Below are positions 1 to 6,879 of a DNA stretch of 6,879 nucleotides, piece after piece. A program made the position numbers and the translations under genes. The notes beneath the pieces are model-generated. The model saw nothing but the letters and a program-made list of their open reading frames with translations, was not told the DNA's origin and ran no database searches. Location: NCBI GenBank assembly GCA_021817025.1, contig JAKAWF010000180.1, forward strand, positions 1 to 6,879. The letters are read 5' to 3'. Within the stretch, counting starts at the first letter, position 1. Each line of letters starts with the position of its first letter. The DNA comes from a bacterium (GTDB taxonomy: Bacteria; Chloroflexota; Dormibacteria; UBA8260; Bog-877).

Positions 1-1255
1 CTGACAGCCCCGCCCGGACCGCATCGCGCACTGGAGTTGCGCCATCCACGTCCTTGACCAGCTCGATGAAGAGGCGATTTAGCTGGTTGGCGGGCACCTG
101 GCACAGGAACCGGCGCACGATGAAGGACTCCAGGTAGCTGAGCGCCAGGCGCAGATCGTCGGCCTGGCACTTGCCCGCGTCCTGCAGCGCGAACAGCTGC
201 ATTATCAAGGGGTAGGTCGTCTGGGCTCCCCAGCGGTTCAGCCGCCGCAGGCTGTGGCGCACCTCCAGGTCCTTCTCGCGACCTGGGTCAACCAACCTGG
301 CGTAGAAGCAGGCTTGATGGGCCAGCTCCCGGACTTGCTCCGCCACCTGGTCTTCGTGTCCGGCGAGCGGCTCAAGGCGCTCCTGGTGGCGACGGTAGAC
401 CTCGTCCCGGGTGACATCGATCCCGCGGCGCTGCAGGTCCACCCGCGCCAGCCCTTCGAGGTTCTCCTGGGTGCGGAGAAGGTCTTCCATCGGGCGCCAG
501 ATTTTTGCGTGGATGTCCTCGCCGCTTCGGGGAAGGAGCATGAAGATGTAGTTGCGCAGCAGGTCCGCCTGGGTCAGGCCCACGCCGGTGCCGTTCAGGG
601 AGGCAAAGATGGCGTACGGGTTGTCGTCCGCTTCGGTTGTGATCTCGACCACTGCCAGCCGGTCGACGATGACCTGGCTAATTAGCTCGAGATCGAAGCC
701 CGTATCTTTGCCGCCATCGGCCAGAGGCGGCCCGGCCCGAAGCGACTGCTGGAGGAAGGCGAAGCTTGCGGCGATCTTGCTGGTGCTGGCGATTGCCGGC
801 TCGCTGTCCATGCAGGCGAAGAAGGCCTCGCGGTCCGCCTTGGCGGGGAGCACCTTGTACTGGTCCAGGCCAGTCGCGTACTCGTTCTTGAGGTAAAGCC
901 CATCGTATTTCGCCCGAGCCCCGGGGTCCCTCGCCGACTCCAGGTCTCGCAGGGCCGCGAGGGCCAGGAAGAGAGTGATCAGCCGCTGCTGCCCGTCGAT
1001 GACCAGGTAGGGCGAAACGCTACTTGGGCCCGTTGGGATTGGCGCGAGCACGAAACTGCCCAGGAAGTGGCGGGATCGCTTGGGCCAGCTGGATCCCTGC
1101 TGTTCCGCCTGGAGAAGCTCGTACTGGGCCAAGATGTCGGCCCAAAGCTGCTTCAGCTGGGTGCCCTCCCAAGTGTATGGCCGCTGGAAAATTGGCACCC
1201 GGTACTGCTTCTGACCCTCGATCAGGGGCTTGAGCGTGGTGGGTCCGGCCTTCAT
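1..1255 (-). CDS. DUF262 (GmrSD N-terminal-like) protein, partial; C-terminus beyond the window
   Basis: The frame is open from an ATG at 1255 to the left edge without a stop, giving about 418 residues of N-terminal sequence. Hallmarks of DUF262 are visible: a YRVPIFQRPYTW block at residues 18-29, FLGSFVL at 64-70, the signature DGQQR at 87-91 followed by LITLFLAL, and FASLNGTG...DLLRNY at about 217-236. DUF262 has a ParB/Srx-like fold and is the N-terminal half of GmrSD-type enzymes, which use nucleotides and cleave modified DNA. These proteins usually end in a DUF1524 HNH nuclease domain, which would lie outside the window, so nuclease activity cannot be judged here. An in-frame TGA about 12 bases upstream of the ATG supports this start. 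The gene is divergent from the dprA-like gene. The family call is strong; a restriction role is inferred from the family. Confidence 0.88.
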   Translation of the reverse strand, partial: MKAGPTTLKPLIEGQKQYRVPIFQRPYTWEGTQLKQLWADILAQYELLQAEQQGSSWPKRSRHFLGSFVLAPIPTGPSSVSPYLVIDGQQRLITLFLALAALRDLESARDPGARAKYDGLYLKNEYATGLDQYKVLPAKADREAFFACMDSEPAIASTSKIAASFAFLQQSLRAGPPLADGGKDTGFDLELISQVIVDRLAVVEITTEADDNPYAIFASLNGTGVGLTQADLLRNYIFMLLPRSGEDIHAKIWRPMEDLLRTQENLEGLARVDLQRRGIDVTRDEVYRRHQERLEPLAGHEDQVAEQVRELAHQACFYARLVDPGREKDLEVRHSLRRLNRWGAQTTYPLIMQLFALQDAGKCQADDLRLALSYLESFIVRRFLCQVPANQLNRLFIELVKDVDGATPVRDAVRAGLS

Positions 1256-1263
1256 GGGCGGAT

Positions 1264-1269
1264 ATCATA
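1264..1269 (-). promoter_or_regulatory. Possible -10 element for a leaderless DUF262 transcript
   Basis: Read on the minus strand the hexamer is TATGAT, one mismatch from TATAAT. It ends 8 bases before the ATG at 1255, and no Shine-Dalgarno sequence lies in between. That spacing would place the transcription start at or within a couple of bases of the start codon, as in the leaderless mRNAs common in high-GC Gram-positives. No convincing -35 box is seen in the GC-rich sequence upstream, so this is only a candidate. Confidence 0.3.
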
Positions 1270-1712
1270 GGGCGGGGCGCCGGCTCAGCTCCGGGCGGCA
1301 AGGCGTCCACCCAGGTGCTGGCGCTGGCCGACTCCGCGAGGCTGCGGCGAGAGCTTCCTTGCTGCAACCCATCTCCCGGCTCCCGCCACTGGCGGCGGCC
1401 GAGCACGCCCCCAGCCGGATGGGCCGCGCAAGCCCCGATTCCCAGGTGGAGCCGGGTCGGCTGTTCCCCGGCGCTCGGCCGGCGAGCATCGTGGGCCAAG
1501 GGGAGTGGGCAGCAATCGAGAAGCGCGGTCGCGGCGGCAGCGGTGCTGGCGAAGCCGCCCGGAGGTGCCCGTGAGGGCTCGGAGCGCGTGCGGCACGCCA
1601 CATACGAGCCAACATCCGGTCGGGACATCCTCTCGCCCTTCCATTCTCGACCTGGCCGCCATATGCTGGGCGGCAGGCGCGGTCCCGGGAAGCGACCTCC
1701 GGAGGACTCTCC

Positions 1713-1718
1713 AAGGAG
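1713..1718 (+). promoter_or_regulatory. Ribosome binding site AAGGAG for the dprA-like gene
   Basis: A strong Shine-Dalgarno match, AAGGAG, lies 6 bases before the GTG at 1725. This favours that GTG over the in-frame ATG at 1743, which has only a poor upstream match. Confidence 0.65.
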
Positions 1719-1724
1719 CAGGGA

Positions 1725-2681
1725 GTGCGACAGGGTGATAGGATGACACATATGTTCGTGGCGCCCCCGCAGGCCCGCCTCGACGAGGCAGCCGCGGTCC
1801 TTGCGCTGGCTGCCGCCACCGACGGCCCCTGGTACATGACCGCGTCCATGATTGAGGATGCGGGCAGTGCCCTGCGCATCCTGCACCGAGAGTGGTCGGG
1901 TCTGGAGCTAATGCCCGAGCCGGAGCTTGCAGCTCTCGTGAACCGCGTCACGCCCGCGGATATCTCACGCTTTCAAGCCGTGATCGAGAGCCAACAAGCG
2001 GTAGGGGTCCGCGTGGTCACGGTACTGGATCAAGACTACCCGGTCAATTTGCGCCAGATCTACAATCGTCCTCCGTTTCTCTTCGTGAAGGGATCCCTTC
2101 ACGAGCAGGACGCCAGGTCGATTGCCGTCGTTGGGACCAGGAAGGCTTCAGACCGTGGCCGCGATCTGGCGGGTCTGCTGTCCTCGAGGCTTTCCCGCCA
2201 TGGCATCACGGTGGTTTCCGGCATGGCGCGAGGGATCGATGCAGCGGCCCATCGAGCCGCCTTGGCCGCCGGGGGACGGACGATCGCCGTCCTGGGCACC
2301 GGGATCGACCGAGTATATCCGCCTGAGCATGCCGGTCTGGCCCAGGCGATAGTCGACTCCGGAGGTGCCTTGGTCTCGCAGTTCCTGCCGGGAGCGGGGC
2401 CGACCCGCTTTTCCTTCCCGATGCGCAATGTGGTGATGAGCGGCATGGCCATCGGCACCGTGGTTGTCGAGGCTTCAGCGACCAGTGGAGCGCGGCTCCA
2501 GGCCAGACTTGCACTCGAGCATGGGAAGCGTCTCTTCCTGGTGCAACCGCTGGTCTTGGAGCAGGAGTGGGCCCAACGCTACTCGCGCCGTCCAGGGGTA
2601 AAGGTTGTGCAGTCGGTCAGTGACATCCTGGGGGCACTGACCAACGTTGGAGCGCCACCCGCCCAGTTGACACTCCAGTGA
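1725..2681 (+). CDS. DprA/Smf-like SLOG-fold protein
   Basis: This 318-residue protein has the DprA Rossmann core in order: VVGTRKAS (135-142), SGMARGIDAAAHRAAL (165-180), AVLGTGIDRVYPPEH (188-202), FSFPMRN (229-235) and VVVEASATSGAR (246-257). The DprA family binds single-stranded DNA and loads RecA during transformation; the wider SLOG superfamily binds nucleotides. Residues about 20-90 form a helical N-terminal region in place of an obvious canonical SAM/HhH domain. There is no room for the C-terminal winged-helix domain found in many DprA proteins. The usual RNRIIAGLS and SGSLITA segments are altered to RNVVMSGMA and SGARLQA. The gene lies 6 bases before a phosphoribosyltransferase gene, with no competence or topA/trm genes nearby, so it is probably an accessory paralogue rather than housekeeping dprA. 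The family call is secure; a defence role is inferred. The GTG start is chosen for its AAGGAG site. Confidence 0.9.
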   Translation: MRQGDRMTHMFVAPPQARLDEAAAVLALAAATDGPWYMTASMIEDAGSALRILHREWSGLELMPEPELAALVNRVTPADISRFQAVIESQQAVGVRVVTVLDQDYPVNLRQIYNRPPFLFVKGSLHEQDARSIAVVGTRKASDRGRDLAGLLSSRLSRHGITVVSGMARGIDAAAHRAALAAGGRTIAVLGTGIDRVYPPEHAGLAQAIVDSGGALVSQFLPGAGPTRFSFPMRNVVMSGMAIGTVVVEASATSGARLQARLALEHGKRLFLVQPLVLEQEWAQRYSRRPGVKVVQSVSDILGALTNVGAPPAQLTLQ

Positions 2682-2687
2682 GAGCCG

Positions 2688-3431
2688 GTGCCCTCCGCTC
2701 AGGAGCTCGCCGACTCTGCCGCAGGGTACCTGGTCCCCGTCCCAGCAGCCGCAGACGGCGTCTGCGACATCTGCCACGGGGCGCCCAACCCTGGCCACCG
2801 CCGCTGCTTCAGCTGTGCTGAGACATCCGCGCAGGTAGCTCATCCTGTGGCCAACGTGGTCCCCATCTCGCTGTACCAGGTCGGAGGTCAGCTGCACCAC
2901 GTGCTGCGGGGATACAAGGATGGCCCTGACCCCACCGTCCGGTATCAGTTCTCGCTCATTGTGGCAGCGCTGCTCGCAAGCTTTCTCCAGCGCCACGGCA
3001 CCTGCGTGGCGGAGGCTGCCGGCGAGTCCTGGGACCTTGTGACTACCGTCCCCTCAGGCCGTGGCCGGGAGCTGCCGCATCCACTGGATGGGGCAATCGA
3101 GCTCTCGCCCTGGCTACGGAGCTGGTGCCATCCCCTGCTCGCCAAGGGAGGCGGGGATGTCCGGCACAACCACGCCGACGAACAGGCCTATGTGGTCACA
3201 GAGGAGGTGCTCGGGCTGCGGATATTGCTGTTAGACGACACCTATACCACTGGCGCCGCGCTGCAGAGCGCGGCATCGGCGCTGAGCGCCGCCGGCGCCC
3301 GGGTGATAGGCGCCGTGCCCATTGGCCGAGTCATCCACCCCGAGTTCAACGAGCAGACCCGCAGGCTGTGGGGGCGCGCGACCGCCTCCGCCTTCGACTT
3401 CGAGCGGTGCTGCCTGTGCGCCAATCGGTGA
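2688..3431 (+). CDS. ComF-like phosphoribosyltransferase with N-terminal zinc finger
   Basis: This 247-residue protein begins at a GTG 6 bases after the dprA-like stop, so translational coupling is likely. Residues 26-43 carry a four-cysteine zinc-binding knuckle (C26, C29, C40, C43). A type I phosphoribosyltransferase domain follows, with VTTVPSGRGRELPHPL at 118-133 and the PRPP-binding loop LLLDDTYTTGAAL at 180-192 after hydrophobic strands. The two acidic residues and TTG expected for binding ribose-phosphate and pyrophosphate are present. The layout resembles ComF, whose biochemical role is unsettled. The tail is unusual: it ends in FERCCLCANR, with three more cysteines at 241, 242 and 244. 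Together with the DprA-like partner this suggests a two-component nucleotide-linked system rather than purine salvage or DNA uptake. The base or nucleotide substrate cannot be read from sequence. Confidence 0.87.
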   Translation: MPSAQELADSAAGYLVPVPAAADGVCDICHGAPNPGHRRCFSCAETSAQVAHPVANVVPISLYQVGGQLHHVLRGYKDGPDPTVRYQFSLIVAALLASFLQRHGTCVAEAAGESWDLVTTVPSGRGRELPHPLDGAIELSPWLRSWCHPLLAKGGGDVRHNHADEQAYVVTEEVLGLRILLLDDTYTTGAALQSAASALSAAGARVIGAVPIGRVIHPEFNEQTRRLWGRATASAFDFERCCLCANR

Positions 3432-3743
3432 GCCCGGAAGCACCTGTGCGCATGCGACACCGCCGCGCGACCGAGTGATGGCCCAGGTAGGGCCTGGAGA
3501 CTCCATCCGGCGGGGCGAAGCTCGCGCCCTGGCGCCCGCGCCTGGCCAGCGCATCCTCGTTTACACCCGCCGTCCCGGATCCGTTGCGGCGACTGGTTTT
3601 CCACGTGTCCTGCTTGGGCCCGGCCTTAGGGCGGTCGAACGCGTCTTCCGCCAGGTCCCGTCCTGGTTCGGACACGCAGGCTCCTCACTCAGGTGGGGGT
3701 TACGCTTCCCCGCCCCTCGATCTGCTGTCGGGGTCTCTCCTTC
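3432..3743. other. Region without a convincing gene
   Basis: Between the phosphoribosyltransferase stop and the decayed mazF end I see no credible complete gene and no clear terminator hairpin with a T-run. The only coding hint is on the minus strand. A GTG at 3675 has AGGAG (3685-3681) 5 bases upstream, and the first roughly 45 residues look protein-like. That frame then becomes arginine-rich and runs to 3346, antisense to the end of the phosphoribosyltransferase gene. It may be the start of a broken gene that followed mazF in the same transcript. Confidence 0.4.
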
Positions 3744-4006
3744 TTATTCGACCGCCGTTTGGAGCCGTTGATACAGCTCCTGGCCCGAGATCAGTCCGGT
3801 CACCGCCGGCGGGTAGGAAGCTCGCCGCGAGGCCGGCAGCCGGGACGGGCCAGTTGAAGTTCGCCTCGCAAGGCACTCTCCGTCCCAGCGGTGCCGCCCC
3901 GGCTTTGGCACAGTCTTAAGCTCACCGCCACCGCCGGGCGGTGCCGGTGGGCCCCCATATCCTTCACCGGTCCCCGATCGGCTGGGCAGATCTCACCACG
4001 GAGCAT
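3744..4006 (-). pseudogene. Decayed MazF/PemK-type toxin gene
   Basis: MazF toxins are small ribonucleases of about 105-115 residues. From the ATG at 4006 the frame reads MLRGEICPADRGPV, then HRPAVAVS and CQSRGG. This matches the MazF opening (M-x-RGEIW-x-AD-x-GPV ... RRPAVVVS ... N-x-SR-x-G). That frame then degenerates and stops at 3800. The next frame continues with PLGRRVPCEANFNWPVPAAG (3891 downward), like the MazF VPLT...PxxV..P..GG strand region. The third frame gives TGLISGQELYQRLQTAVE and a TAA at 3744, like the MazF C-terminal helix. The remains total 263 bases, shorter than an intact gene and broken by at least two frameshifts. W is replaced by C in the RGEIW motif. The reading rests on pattern recognition of a short family, so moderate confidence. 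Confidence 0.55.
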
Positions 4007-4180
4007 CGGGTGGGATCCCGTCGCCGGCGGTCTGGTCCCAGGCCAGGGTCCCGCCCGATCCCCTCCCACTCCCTGAAGGCTTCCTCGTATTCCAGGGCCA
4101 GGTCCGCCCCGGGCAGGGGACCCACGGTCGAGCCGAGGACGGCAGGCCGCAGGGGACACTTCCAGCCTCGGCGTCTTGAT
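3993..4180 (-). pseudogene. Frameshifted MazE-like antitoxin remnant
   Basis: This lies just before the mazF remnant. One frame (minus strand, 4107 to 4063) reads ADLALEYEEAFREWE, the acidic helical tail typical of small antitoxins. One base later the next frame reads GSGGTLAWDQTAGDGIPP, ending DAPW and a TGA at 3995-3993. Removing one base from the run of four at 4060-4063 joins the two into a single antitoxin C-terminus. That stop overlaps the mazF start by 14 bases, the usual arrangement of a toxin-antitoxin operon. Further upstream a third frame reads IKTPRLEVS, which may be the DNA-binding N-terminus, so a second lesion is likely. The 5' limit is approximate. A functional antitoxin is unlikely unless the base run is a sequencing error and the N-terminus can be rescued. 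Confidence 0.45.
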
Positions 4181-4223
4181 CCGGGAACCCGCCAGCGCCC
4201 GCCGCGTCCCGCGACTTGGCCAG

Positions 4224-4568
4224 TCAGCCGCTAGAGGATCTCCGGGAACGAGTCCCGGCACCAACCGGTCGGGGCGCCGGTTCTCGCAGCGGCTCCAGAG
4301 TTACGCGCCATCCGAGGAGGCTGGCGTACCGCTCCAAGCTGCTGAGCTTGGGATCCACACGCCCCCGCTCCAGGCGTGCCACGTTGGGTTGCTTGGTGCC
4401 GAGGGCGGCTGCGACCCGCTCCTGGCTCAGACCCTGGCGCTCCCGCTCAGCGGCCAGCTGAAGAACCAGCCGGCGGGTCTCCAACTCCGCCCGCAGCAGC
4501 TCGGCAAAGTCCGGCTTGATGCCGGCGCGCGCCGCGATGAAGGCGTCCAGGTCGTCTCGCTTCGCCAT
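4224..4568 (-). CDS. XRE-family helix-turn-helix regulator / antitoxin
   Basis: This 114-residue protein begins MAKRDDLDAFIAARAG and carries an XRE (Cro/C1-type) helix-turn-helix at about residues 41-86. The motif reads ERERQGLSQERVAAALGTKQ, then PNVARLERG, PKLSSLERYASLLG, with the expected Q after the turn and the R-x-E-x-G contact. The N-terminal helical extension and total length match HigA-like antitoxins that accompany RelE/HigB toxins. No RelE-like toxin is visible on either side. The genes immediately downstream on the same strand are mazE/mazF remnants, about 43 bases away. It may therefore be an orphan antitoxin or the autoregulator of that block. The roughly 20-residue tail after LEPL is rich in proline, arginine and serine, and may be non-native. 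A palindrome lies 15 bases upstream of its start. Confidence 0.82.
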   Translation of the reverse strand: MAKRDDLDAFIAARAGIKPDFAELLRAELETRRLVLQLAAERERQGLSQERVAAALGTKQPNVARLERGRVDPKLSSLERYASLLGWRVTLEPLREPAPRPVGAGTRSRRSSSG

Positions 4569-4583
4569 CCCATTGAGAGCCTA

Positions 4584-4603
4584 CCATATCGTACAAGATA
4601 TGG
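4584..4603. promoter_or_regulatory. Palindromic operator upstream of the XRE gene
   Basis: A perfect 7-base inverted repeat, CCATATC, six bases, GATATGG, sits 15 bases before the XRE start at 4568. It is the only AT-rich patch in this stretch. Size and placement fit a dimeric HTH regulator binding site overlapping its own promoter, as in autoregulated toxin-antitoxin operons. The symmetry is seen directly; the assignment to this regulator is inferred. Confidence 0.68.
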
Positions 4604-5023
4604 CATCAGGTTCGGTGAGAGACTGGGGCAAGGGTTCTCACCCGACCCTGGGTGCCAAAACTGGACAGGTGAGCGACGAGGCATCCGCGTGAAGCCGCGC
4701 CGCGGCCCGATCTGCGATTTCGATGGGACTAGGCTCCCGCTGCCGGGCACAACAAGCACATAGGGGTCCCGAACTCCGCCGGCCTAGCTCACCTGCCGGC
4801 CCGCCCTCACGGCTCAGCTGCCGACGCCGGGACAACTGCCTTCCACCTGGTTGGCCCGCCCATCATGCCGACCAGTTATCCACTGAAATCGTGGACCGGG
4901 GGACACTTTTGGTGATCAGCTCAGTGCACTATTCGTGATCGTCCAAAGGTGCGCCCTCTTCCGCGCTGCGGCCACCTGGGACCCGCCCACCCTACAGCTG
5001 CCGCTGCGGGCCACCGACTCAGG
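4604..5023. other. Non-coding region with IS debris
   Basis: About 420 bases lie between the XRE operator and the inverted repeat before the PLD-like gene. Open frames exist on both strands but show no recognisable domain. The only structure I can support is the pair of IS21-end-like repeats at 4904-4940. Any toxin partner for the XRE protein would be expected here or downstream of it, and I could not find one. Confidence 0.45.
4904..4940. mobile_element. Possible IS21-family terminal repeats (remnant)
   Basis: Two direct repeats, CACTTTTGGTGATC (4904-4917) and CACTATTCGTGATC (4927-4940), differ at two of 14 positions and are spaced 23 bases apart. IS21-family ends carry multiple transposase-binding repeats, often close to CACTTTTGGTGATC. 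No istA or istB coding sequence is in the window, so this would be an end left by deletion or a neighbour that moved. The resemblance is from memory of the family. Confidence 0.4.
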
Positions 5024-5092
5024 GTAAACCGGCACCGGCGCAACTCAGGCGAGTCAGGGTGCGACTTGCCAGCCCGGGGGTGCTCGGTTTAC
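5024..5092. repeat. Imperfect inverted repeat upstream of the PLD-like gene
   Basis: The left arm GTAAACCGGCACC (5024-5036) pairs with the right arm GGTGCTCGGTTTAC (5079-5092) with a single-base bulge, across a 42-base loop. A direct repeat CGANTCAGGGT (5015-5025 and 5050-5060, 35 bases apart) is interwoven. The right arm ends one base before the TTG proposed as the start of the next gene. It could be a regulator site, an RNA hairpin hiding the start, or the ends of a small deleted element. Confidence 0.55.
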
Positions 5093-5093
5093 A

Positions 5094-5687
5094 TTGACCG
5101 CGCCGCAGACCGAGGCGGCCACCGATTTCGGTCGGAGGTGGACCCTTGCACCGGCGGAGAACTGGGAAGAGGGACGTTGGACGGCAGACAGGGATGTCGA
5201 GGCTGTGGCCGCCAGGATTCGGCGGGCCATCGAGGAGCGCCCGTACCACTCGCGGCGCATCCGCTGCTACCGGCTGCTCTCTGAGCTTGGCATCCAGAAG
5301 CTCAGTGACGTGATGCGAGCAGCTGGTCCCTGCCATTTCGTCGATCCCTACTGCAGGGAACCACGACTTAACGAACGCGCGAAGGACACCGAGGCGGCGC
5401 GCGTACTCATTGGCCCGAAGGTTGACCCCGAGCGCTTCGATCTCACTCTTGGGAATATCAGGCCGCCTCGCGCACAGGAGCTCCACATCAGCCCCAACAT
5501 TCACGACCGGTACGTCATACCCGATGACGGGCAGGTACCTGTACTCGGCACGGCGCCGACGGGGATCGGAAAGTCCAAGCCATCAGTCTTGGTCCATCTA
5601 GACGTTGCGCTGTCCGGAACAATTCGCCAAGTCCACGAAGAAGTCTGGACAAGAGCGAGAAAGTGGGCACCGCCGCGGCGGTCCTGA
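5094..5687 (+). CDS. Phospholipase-D-fold-like protein with variant HKD motif
   Basis: The frame encodes 197 residues from a TTG at 5094. It is open upstream only to a TAA at 5025 and has no ATG before residue 74, so either TTG is the start or the 5' end has been lost. A VDPYC segment at about 83-87 resembles the strand motif DPY of PLD-like proteins. HDRYVIPDD...LGT at 137-153 then resembles a relaxed HKD motif (H-x-K-x4-D-x6-G-S) with R for K (R139), one extra residue before the aspartate, and GT for GS. GIGKSKPSVLVHL follows, as in the conserved tail of this type of domain. Only one such motif is present, so catalysis would need a dimer, if the protein is catalytic at all. PLD-fold enzymes cut phosphodiesters in nucleic acids or lipids. 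The membrane-protein gene starts 55 bases later. The assignment is by motif reading only. Confidence 0.6.
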   Translation: MTAPQTEAATDFGRRWTLAPAENWEEGRWTADRDVEAVAARIRRAIEERPYHSRRIRCYRLLSELGIQKLSDVMRAAGPCHFVDPYCREPRLNERAKDTEAARVLIGPKVDPERFDLTLGNIRPPRAQELHISPNIHDRYVIPDDGQVPVLGTAPTGIGKSKPSVLVHLDVALSGTIRQVHEEVWTRARKWAPPRRS

Positions 5688-5742
5688 CCGCATCGGGACC
5701 AACGATGCAAACCGAACAGCCCGGCCAGAAGCTTCGATCCAA

Positions 5743-6519
5743 ATGAATCCTGTACGGCGGGTCAGGGCGTGGATACGCCAAACACGGCGGCGAATTGAGA
5801 CACGGATGGCCATTGGTGCCTGGTCACGGGACACAGCGACCGCTGCGGGCTTATTGGAAGCGAAGGCGGACAAAAGCCCTCTTAGGTGGATGTGGCGATC
5901 CCTCTTCGTCCTTGGGGCATTGCTTCCGACTTGGGATGGCGAGTCTACGGTGGTATTCGTAGCAGCCTTCGGTCTCCTTGGAGCGTGGCTAGTGAGTTCG
6001 CCGCTGTTGGTGGCCGGCATTGCCGACCTCGACCTCGCGGGGATGCTGCCTCGGGTACCCGAGCTGTGGAAACGGATCGTGGGGGTTGCCGAAAAGTACG
6101 AAACCGACCTACCCCAACTAACCGAGGCAGACCAGATCAAGCTTGTAGAGGTAGCGCCAACGCTAGCAAAGGAACTGGCGGGAGGAGCCTTCGTGCCGAA
6201 AGTGGCCGGAGTTGCCTTCGCAGTTGGGGAGGGGCTGGCGGTAGCTCTGCTCGGCCTCATGGTAGGACCTCTGCTCCAGCACATTCGGTTCGGCTACTGG
6301 TCGCCGGTCTCTTTGCTGTTCGGGGCGGTCTTACCGAGCCTGGCAATGGCCGCCTCCACTTTGGTGGCCGCGGTATTGGGGCGCGCTCTAGTCGTCTCTT
6401 TGGGCGCAAACGAGCGTATTCAAGTAGCTATCGCCAAGACCGACACCGTGGTGGCCGAACGAGGTAGGGTAGAGCCTGTCCCAAATGGTCAAGAGGGCAT
6501 CGACGACAGCCAAGGCTAG
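5743..6519 (+). CDS. Hypothetical membrane protein with four predicted transmembrane segments
   Basis: I do not recognise a family. From the ATG at 5743 the protein has 258 residues. It starts with a strongly basic stretch (MNPVRRVRAWIRQTRRRIETR), so the N-terminus is probably cytoplasmic. Hydrophobic segments lie at about 52-62 and 68-92, then a roughly 60-residue charged central region, then segments at about 155-178 and 188-220, and a polar acidic tail. The frame stays open to a TTG at 5605, but that would overlap the PLD-like gene by 83 bases and add a low-complexity polar leader, so the ATG is preferred although no good ribosome site precedes it. It lies 55 bases after the PLD-like gene on the same strand, so an operon is likely. 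Its composition is visibly less GC-rich than the left half of the window, which may reflect separate acquisition. A pore or anchor role for a PLD-like partner is speculation. Confidence 0.66.
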   Translation: MNPVRRVRAWIRQTRRRIETRMAIGAWSRDTATAAGLLEAKADKSPLRWMWRSLFVLGALLPTWDGESTVVFVAAFGLLGAWLVSSPLLVAGIADLDLAGMLPRVPELWKRIVGVAEKYETDLPQLTEADQIKLVEVAPTLAKELAGGAFVPKVAGVAFAVGEGLAVALLGLMVGPLLQHIRFGYWSPVSLLFGAVLPSLAMAASTLVAAVLGRALVVSLGANERIQVAIAKTDTVVAERGRVEPVPNGQEGIDDSQG

Positions 6520-6643
6520 AGCCTCGCCTAGAGTGTCTCCCGCTGACCGTCTAATACAGCCTTCTCAAGCCCGGTGGCCAGAATGAGGTGGAGTGGCTGG
6601 CATTGCGTGACCGAGCGCCTGTACGAACCGCAGCGCGAAGATG

Positions 6644-6879
6644 CTACTGAGAGTTCTTGCGAACGTAGTGCCCTGCGCGTGAAGTGGCTTTTACATTAGT
6701 CTGGGGTAGGACCTCACTGGGCGTCTTGACCCACGAGAAGGGATGCTTCGTCTCGTCCCACTCGGCGATGAATTGCTGGATGGAGGCGACCAGAGCGCGC
6801 ACACTGCGGAAGACGCCTCGCTGAATCGCCTTGCGGTGCAGGATCGCGAACCAGGTCTCCACCTGGTCCATCCAGCTGG
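6644..6879 (-). CDS. IS630-family transposase, C-terminal fragment (continues beyond window)
   Basis: The minus-strand frame enters at the right edge reading SWMDQVETWFAILHRKAI, followed by RGVFRSVRALVASIQQFI, then HPFSWVKTPSEVL. This is the conserved C-terminal block of IS630-type DDE transposases (SW-x-NQVE-x-WF ... RKA-x-RRG-x-FRSV ... PF-x-W-x-KT). The glutamate of QVE is the usual third catalytic acidic residue of the DDE triad. The rest of the protein lies outside, so intactness is unknown. The tail after the KT block, about 25 residues, does not look family-like, and the true end may have been altered by loss of the original stop. The left end of the element should lie within about 100 bases downstream, but I could not identify a terminal inverted repeat. 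Confidence 0.8.
   Translation of the reverse strand, partial: SWMDQVETWFAILHRKAIQRGVFRSVRALVASIQQFIAEWDETKHPFSWVKTPSEVLPQTNVKATSRAGHYVRKNSQ

Follow-up and report, generated by a model that had tools for sequence, protein, structure and literature searches.

DprA-like proteins stand beside phosphoribosyltransferases (PRTases) in several described systems. A DprA and PRTase system from a hotspot of P2-like phages protects Escherichia coli from T7 and lambda, and passages of the report describing it tie it to shosTA, psyrTA and rqlHI (Rousset et al., PMC9122126). ShosT has been described as combining phosphoribosyltransferase and pyrophosphatase activities and as disturbing purine metabolism, with ShosA binding DNA and Gp0.7 of T7 acting as a trigger (Pu et al. 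2025, as outlined in the review PMC12593503). The toxicity of RqlH is largely lost in mutants of its pocket for phosphoribosyl pyrophosphate (PRPP), and RqlI and RqlH interact, according to excerpts of PMC4670107. Here we analyze two adjacent genes, one DprA-like and one for a PRTase, in a stretch of 6,879 nucleotides from a member of the Dormibacteria (Chloroflexota; UBA8260; Bog-877), contig JAKAWF010000180.1 of assembly GCA_021817025.1, positions 1 to 6,879 of the forward strand (hereafter, the window). A preliminary description, made from the letters alone, had suggested a nucleotide-based conflict system and stated that no characterised mechanism was known for such pairs. The second statement is out of date, given what the cited parts of PMC9122126, PMC4670107 and PMC12593503 describe for ShosTA, PsyrTA and RqlHI. 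The first is supported as the likeliest role: we conclude that the pair is probably a two-gene, TA (toxin-antitoxin) style phage-defence module of the ShosTA kind, built around a compact enzyme, with toxicity and defence as predicted properties. The direct support is anatomical and comprises gene order, co-divergence, purifying selection, the PRPP loop and zinc ribbon of the PRTase, the fold and signature residues of the DprA-like protein, and carriage on mobile elements.

The DprA-like (ShosA-like) protein is encoded at 1743..2681 on the plus strand, giving 312 aa from the ATG at 1743. An alternative GTG start at 1725 would extend the open reading frame (ORF) to 1725-2681 and the product to 318 aa, but the ATG is the likelier start since P0088 and P0089, its closest relatives, both have 312 aa. 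The ComFC/ShosT-like PRTase follows on the same strand at 2688..3431 (247 aa, GTG start at 2688), and 6 bases separate its start from the DprA stop at 2681. The coupling, the SLOG-fold DprA relative and the zinc-finger PRTase with a complete PRPP loop were all recognized in the preliminary description and are borne out here. The DprA-like protein matches Pfam PF02481 (DprA) with 211 bits and the NCBIfam ‘equivalog’ DprA model with 195.8 bits (cut-off 191.15), and its predicted structure (pLDDT, the predicted local distance difference test score, 91.9) has the SLOG fold. It also matches the PADLOC models for ShosA (PDLC03961, 3.5e-68) and PsyrA (1.9e-34). We rejected the ShosA match as proof of identity, because in a control with 10 unpaired DprA loci the same model also matched housekeeping-type DprA.

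The PRTase falls under the Pfam cut-off (PF00156, 18.8 versus 26.3 bits), and no helicase match was found for the 247-aa protein in the Pfam and NCBIfam scans. In an alignment of the window protein with 77 relatives from a word-based search (n = 78; 9 of the 87 listed proteins omitted), the four cysteines of a zinc ribbon (C26-C29-C40-C43; 2763..2816, plus strand) are at least 90% conserved. The PRPP loop, LLLDDTYTTG (residues 180-189; 3225..3254, plus strand), is complete, and D183, D184 and G189 are invariant. A scan of positions 1200-3800 for promoters and terminators found none.

Relative to L001, the nearest named relative (a Dormibacterota metagenome-assembled genome, or MAG), the ratio of nonsynonymous to synonymous substitution rates (dN/dS) is 0.153 for DprA and 0.22 for the PRTase. 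Both genes are under purifying selection and are selected as proteins. These ratios, together with the intact state of both frames in the window, argue against a decaying insertion without function, which we regard as very improbable even though our frame script found no gene from 3431 to 4224 and a genome of the nearest family (G909) carries a DprA of the same clade split over two frames, with no PRTase in the stretch examined (L227, 1417-2462, minus strand).

The pairing of the two genes is conserved. The PRTase alignment picked out 79 loci in genome contigs; the scan used a pattern based on the PRPP loop, so that loop conservation within these 79 is biased. A DprA gene lies directly upstream on the same strand in 59/79 (57 by a scripted rule, and L022 and L056 by inspection). 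Homologues are thus mostly linked, whereas the preliminary description had held that mostly unlinked homologues would speak against the coupling. Among the other loci, DprA is downstream of the PRTase in L067 and on the opposite strand in L075, the sequence of L077 starts with the PRTase, and L078 matches only weakly (45 bits). The pairwise divergences of the two proteins are correlated across 59 pairs (the window, 56 genome loci, a phage and a plasmid), with r = 0.85 and 0/2000 permutations reaching this value, a relationship to which shared ancestry alone can contribute. In the converse sample, 18 genomes with a member of the DprA clade (L114-L131) were collected with the window DprA as query at E 1e-60 or 1e-55. 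A PRTase of the window type adjoins DprA in 10 (one of them, L130, breaks off before the PRPP loop), a PRTase with a double ribbon in 6, the N-terminal part only in 1 (L131) and none in 1 (L122). The DprA-PRTase pair is a conserved unit.

The paired DprA is distinct from the DprA found elsewhere in the same genomes. At least two DprA matches are present in 20 of the 23 genomes searched, and in those 20 there is a DprA without an adjacent PRTase by our pair rule, which reaches 84-153 bits with the profile of the paired clade. A 92-row tree (63 paired, 29 unpaired) needs 3 changes of the paired or unpaired label, versus a shuffled mean of 24.8. The three unpaired rows on the paired side are L109, which has a double-ribbon PRTase, L067, with its downstream DprA, and L111, which has no PRTase. 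After omission of these three and addition of nine further DprAs from the class to which the window presumably belongs (L216-L223 and L226), a single branch of the resulting 96-row tree sets all 62 paired rows and the remnant L227 apart from unpaired DprA. One of the additions, L226, is a dprA located between what we take to be a ComM-like ORF and topA. All DprA trees were quick ones that omitted rows under 170 residues and near-duplicates (L002, L110 and L113 from the 92-row tree; L002, L224 and L225 from the 96-row tree; more from the 114-row tree discussed below), and long branches make the placement of L081 and L108, and of L067 in the 92-row tree, unsure.

Residues G137, R139, G166, G170, D172, H176, R234, E249 and G255 form a core common to paired and unpaired DprA. 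The paired clade has in addition a signature of Q219, S239, Q259, H266 and W282, each present in 53-58 of 58-59 paired sequences, at sites where the commonest unpaired residues are E (20/24), A (23/24), T (20/24), L (19/24) and S (19/20), respectively. This comparison used 60 paired and 24 unpaired rows, the latter being L082-L108 without L102. The nine added DprAs do not have Q219, Q259, H266 or W282, although L216-L223 do have S239. The trees and signature residues therefore separate paired from unpaired DprA; bit scores do not. We rejected score as a divider, as the unpaired L216-L223, from the class of G001, score 189-200, whereas the lowest paired proteins score 179 (L081), 183 (L008) and 129 and 173 (the two pieces of the split L035), around a paired median of 303.

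These results bear on a reading in which the two proteins handle DNA, the ComFC-like PRTase handing single-stranded DNA over to DprA to be recombined or protected, with no toxin involved. The ComFC-DprA couple of natural transformation is the obvious comparison. The window pair differs from it in consisting of two adjacent accessory genes with a DprA from a separate clade, and no competence genes were found in the window. In agreement with the preliminary description, Pfam and NCBIfam scans of 7 window proteins matched none of the topA, trmFO, comE or RNase H families at E<=0.01. The clade and signature of the paired DprA, in genomes 20/23 of which hold an unpaired DprA as well, and the patchy, phage- or plasmid-borne distribution described next also speak against it. 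We consider a DNA-handling pair unlikely, while noting that a role in handling single-stranded DNA for a mobile element would be compatible with all of these points.

The pair looks accessory and not housekeeping, since in the nearest family no DprA scores above the cut-off in 14/18 genomes (genome completeness unstated) and only 2/18 have the pair. One member of the family (G907) has an ordinary dprA beside topA. Further counts of 9/296, 8/296 and 3/301 also describe a patchy distribution. The preliminary description had proposed that the genes would be the housekeeping copies if the genome had no other dprA and comF. The outcome on this point is mixed: in the two nearest MAGs (G001 and G905) the paired genes are the only hits of PF02481 and TIGR00201 (comF), but the housekeeping interpretation is rejected because the family is mostly without dprA and the pair is patchy.

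We identified the pair on mobile elements. In the Gordonia phage Vasanti it corresponds to genes 30 and 29, flanked by a minor tail gene and by a run of small genes leading to the integrase and repressor. On the mycobacterial plasmid pMYCCH.01 (L081), SIR2, DprA and PRTase genes stand in a row, with the SIR2-family gene (3649-6726) directly upstream of the pair. Among DprA loci of IMG/VR, the four closest (L141-L144) have double-ribbon PRTases and L145, L147 and L148 have the window type; many of the 75 loci, among the more distant ones, have no PRTase neighbour by the profiles used. A search of viral contigs with the PRTase alignment confirmed no relative, so that the phage evidence derives from other searches, including that with DprA, and a viral structure library yielded general PRTases only.

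Enrichment near defence genes, a check suggested in the preliminary description, was also examined. Neighbours of 52 paired loci matched 193 PADLOC families, versus 4 for neighbours of 26 unpaired dprA loci (143 proteins, of 207 listed for 56 loci, versus 98 proteins), but we treat this signal as weak, because none of the 25 families displayed was matched by more than 4 of these proteins, many are generic, such as kinases and methyltransferases, and the tally is of families rather than of distinct neighbours. A weak signal agrees with the under-representation of ShosTA in defence islands reported in the consulted portion of PMC10924106.

Like ShosTA of E. coli (PDB 8zva for ShosA, 8zvb-8zvd for ShosT), the locus consists of adjacent, same-strand genes for a DprA-like protein and a PRTase, the DprA-like partner resembles ShosA, and the PRPP-binding acid pair is intact in the PRTase (D183, D184). 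It differs in the size of the enzyme, 247 aa versus 432 aa for ShosT, with which it aligns over ShosT residues 152-413 only. As in RqlHI and PsyrTA, a DprA-like antitoxin would control a PRTase toxin. In those systems, according to the relevant passages of PMC4670107, the toxin is a RecQ-like helicase with the PRTase as its C-terminal domain, and its gene is the upstream one of the two, whereas the window PRTase stands alone and downstream of DprA. We found no description of the compact PRTase as a separate kind in the literature searched, which covered few subscription papers. Counts of ShosTA have been published for actinobacterial prophages (PMC10023795) and plasmids (PMC10482375); as presented in the cited portions of these papers, they may include or exclude the compact type. 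The PRTases of 416-423 aa beside DprA in L150 and L155 are at most ShosT candidates, and L155 has no sequence match to the PDB ShosT.

By analogy with ShosTA and RqlHI, we consider it most likely that the upstream gene encodes a DNA-binding, DprA-like antitoxin and sensor and that the downstream gene, probably translationally coupled to it, encodes a PRPP-binding PRTase effector. In the resting cell DprA would bind the PRTase and keep it inactive. Infection, by exposing single-stranded DNA or because the host loses control, would free the PRTase, which would then use PRPP and disturb the purine nucleotide pool, leading to DNA damage and to arrest before phage release. Structurally, the compact PRTase is nearest to ComFC, and its origin may lie in the ComFC-DprA couple of natural transformation.

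Several observations weigh against a TA module of the ShosTA kind. The similarity of the window PRTase to ShosT is weak, and ShosT ranks low by both Foldseek and profile search, which lowers our confidence slightly. The weakest point is the existence of PRTases without DprA: 16/79 PRTase loci have no DprA in the stretch examined, the active site is intact in all 15 of these that were scored, and some share a repeated chromosomal setting. Either these enzymes are non-toxic or the PRTase core alone is not sufficient for toxicity. Such enzymes would be expected if the PRTase served in nucleotide salvage or regulation under the control of DprA, with no role in defence. The patchy distribution, carriage by a phage and a plasmid, tight pairing and co-divergence are at odds with that interpretation, to which we assign a small probability, below that of the DNA-handling pair, and a phage-defence TA module remains our preferred explanation. 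In L006, L014, L019 and L024 a window-type PRTase without DprA follows a gene of 1179 bases, which encodes a thiolase in L006, the one case examined; L006 and L014 also have a protein kinase gene downstream. In these four cases the enzyme seems to have a chromosomal use outside TA systems.

A second type of PRTase, with a double ribbon, accompanies the same DprA clade in L102, L109, L115, L116, L118, L120, L126 and L128 and in the viral contigs L141-L144. In a 114-row DprA tree (73 window-type, 12 double-ribbon), the PRTase-type label changes twice, suggesting that swaps are rare. Compound loci also occur, with an extra PRTase near one DprA or with back-to-back pairs in some Nocardioides, Frankia and Micromonosporaceae. 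A second PRTase lies near a pair in L031, L060, L061 and L063, the order in L061 being PRTase-DprA-PRTase, and L059 has two divergent pairs back to back. It is possible, though we hold this only tentatively, that one DprA lineage serves as an interchangeable sensor and antitoxin for at least two ComFC-like PRTase effectors, forming a modular immune family that arose from a captured ComFC-DprA couple and in which effectors were exchanged while the DNA sensor stayed constant.

Records named Dormibacterota, Chloroflexi and Actinomycetota contain the nearest relatives of the pair. Upstream in the window lies a DUF262/GmrSD_N gene (2..1255, minus strand; PF03235, 6.4e-33), of which the N-terminal 418 aa are present and the remainder extends beyond the window. 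It adjoins the pair in L001 and L002 as well, the homologous frame in L001 being ~1020 aa long, and the part inside the window has a dN/dS of 0.232 versus L001, showing selection as a protein. DNA identity to L001 and L002 is 81-82% for the pair and 85.6% over 1301 bases for the DUF262 part, which makes it most likely that the window belongs to their family within the Dormibacterota; the common order, DUF262 on the minus strand followed by DprA-PRTase, stops near positions 3591 (L001) and 3525 (L002). Beyond this, ~284 bases of the window (3874-4156) are 75% identical to L001 2435-2716. In the window this stretch comes after the pair, but in L001 the DUF262 gene separates it from the pair; it is perhaps a repeated element. 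The rest of the window encodes a small XRE-type helix-turn-helix protein (4224-4568, minus strand; PF01381, 7.5e-11), two overlapping open frames (5094-6519, plus strand) that match nothing in Pfam, NCBIfam or PADLOC at E 0.01, and a weak match (18 bits, under the cut-off) to the end of an IS630-type transposase (6644-6879, minus strand).

The ShosTA-type pairs characterised in the portions of the literature cited here come from E. coli and other proteobacteria; the compact form occurs in Dormibacterota and Actinomycetota. Annotation with the NCBIfam ‘equivalog’ model would label such an antitoxin as housekeeping DprA. The compact form cuts the effector down to the PRTase core, which raises the question of what ShosT gains from its first 150 residues, and the structural proximity of this enzyme to ComFC makes an origin of this TA type from competence proteins testable.
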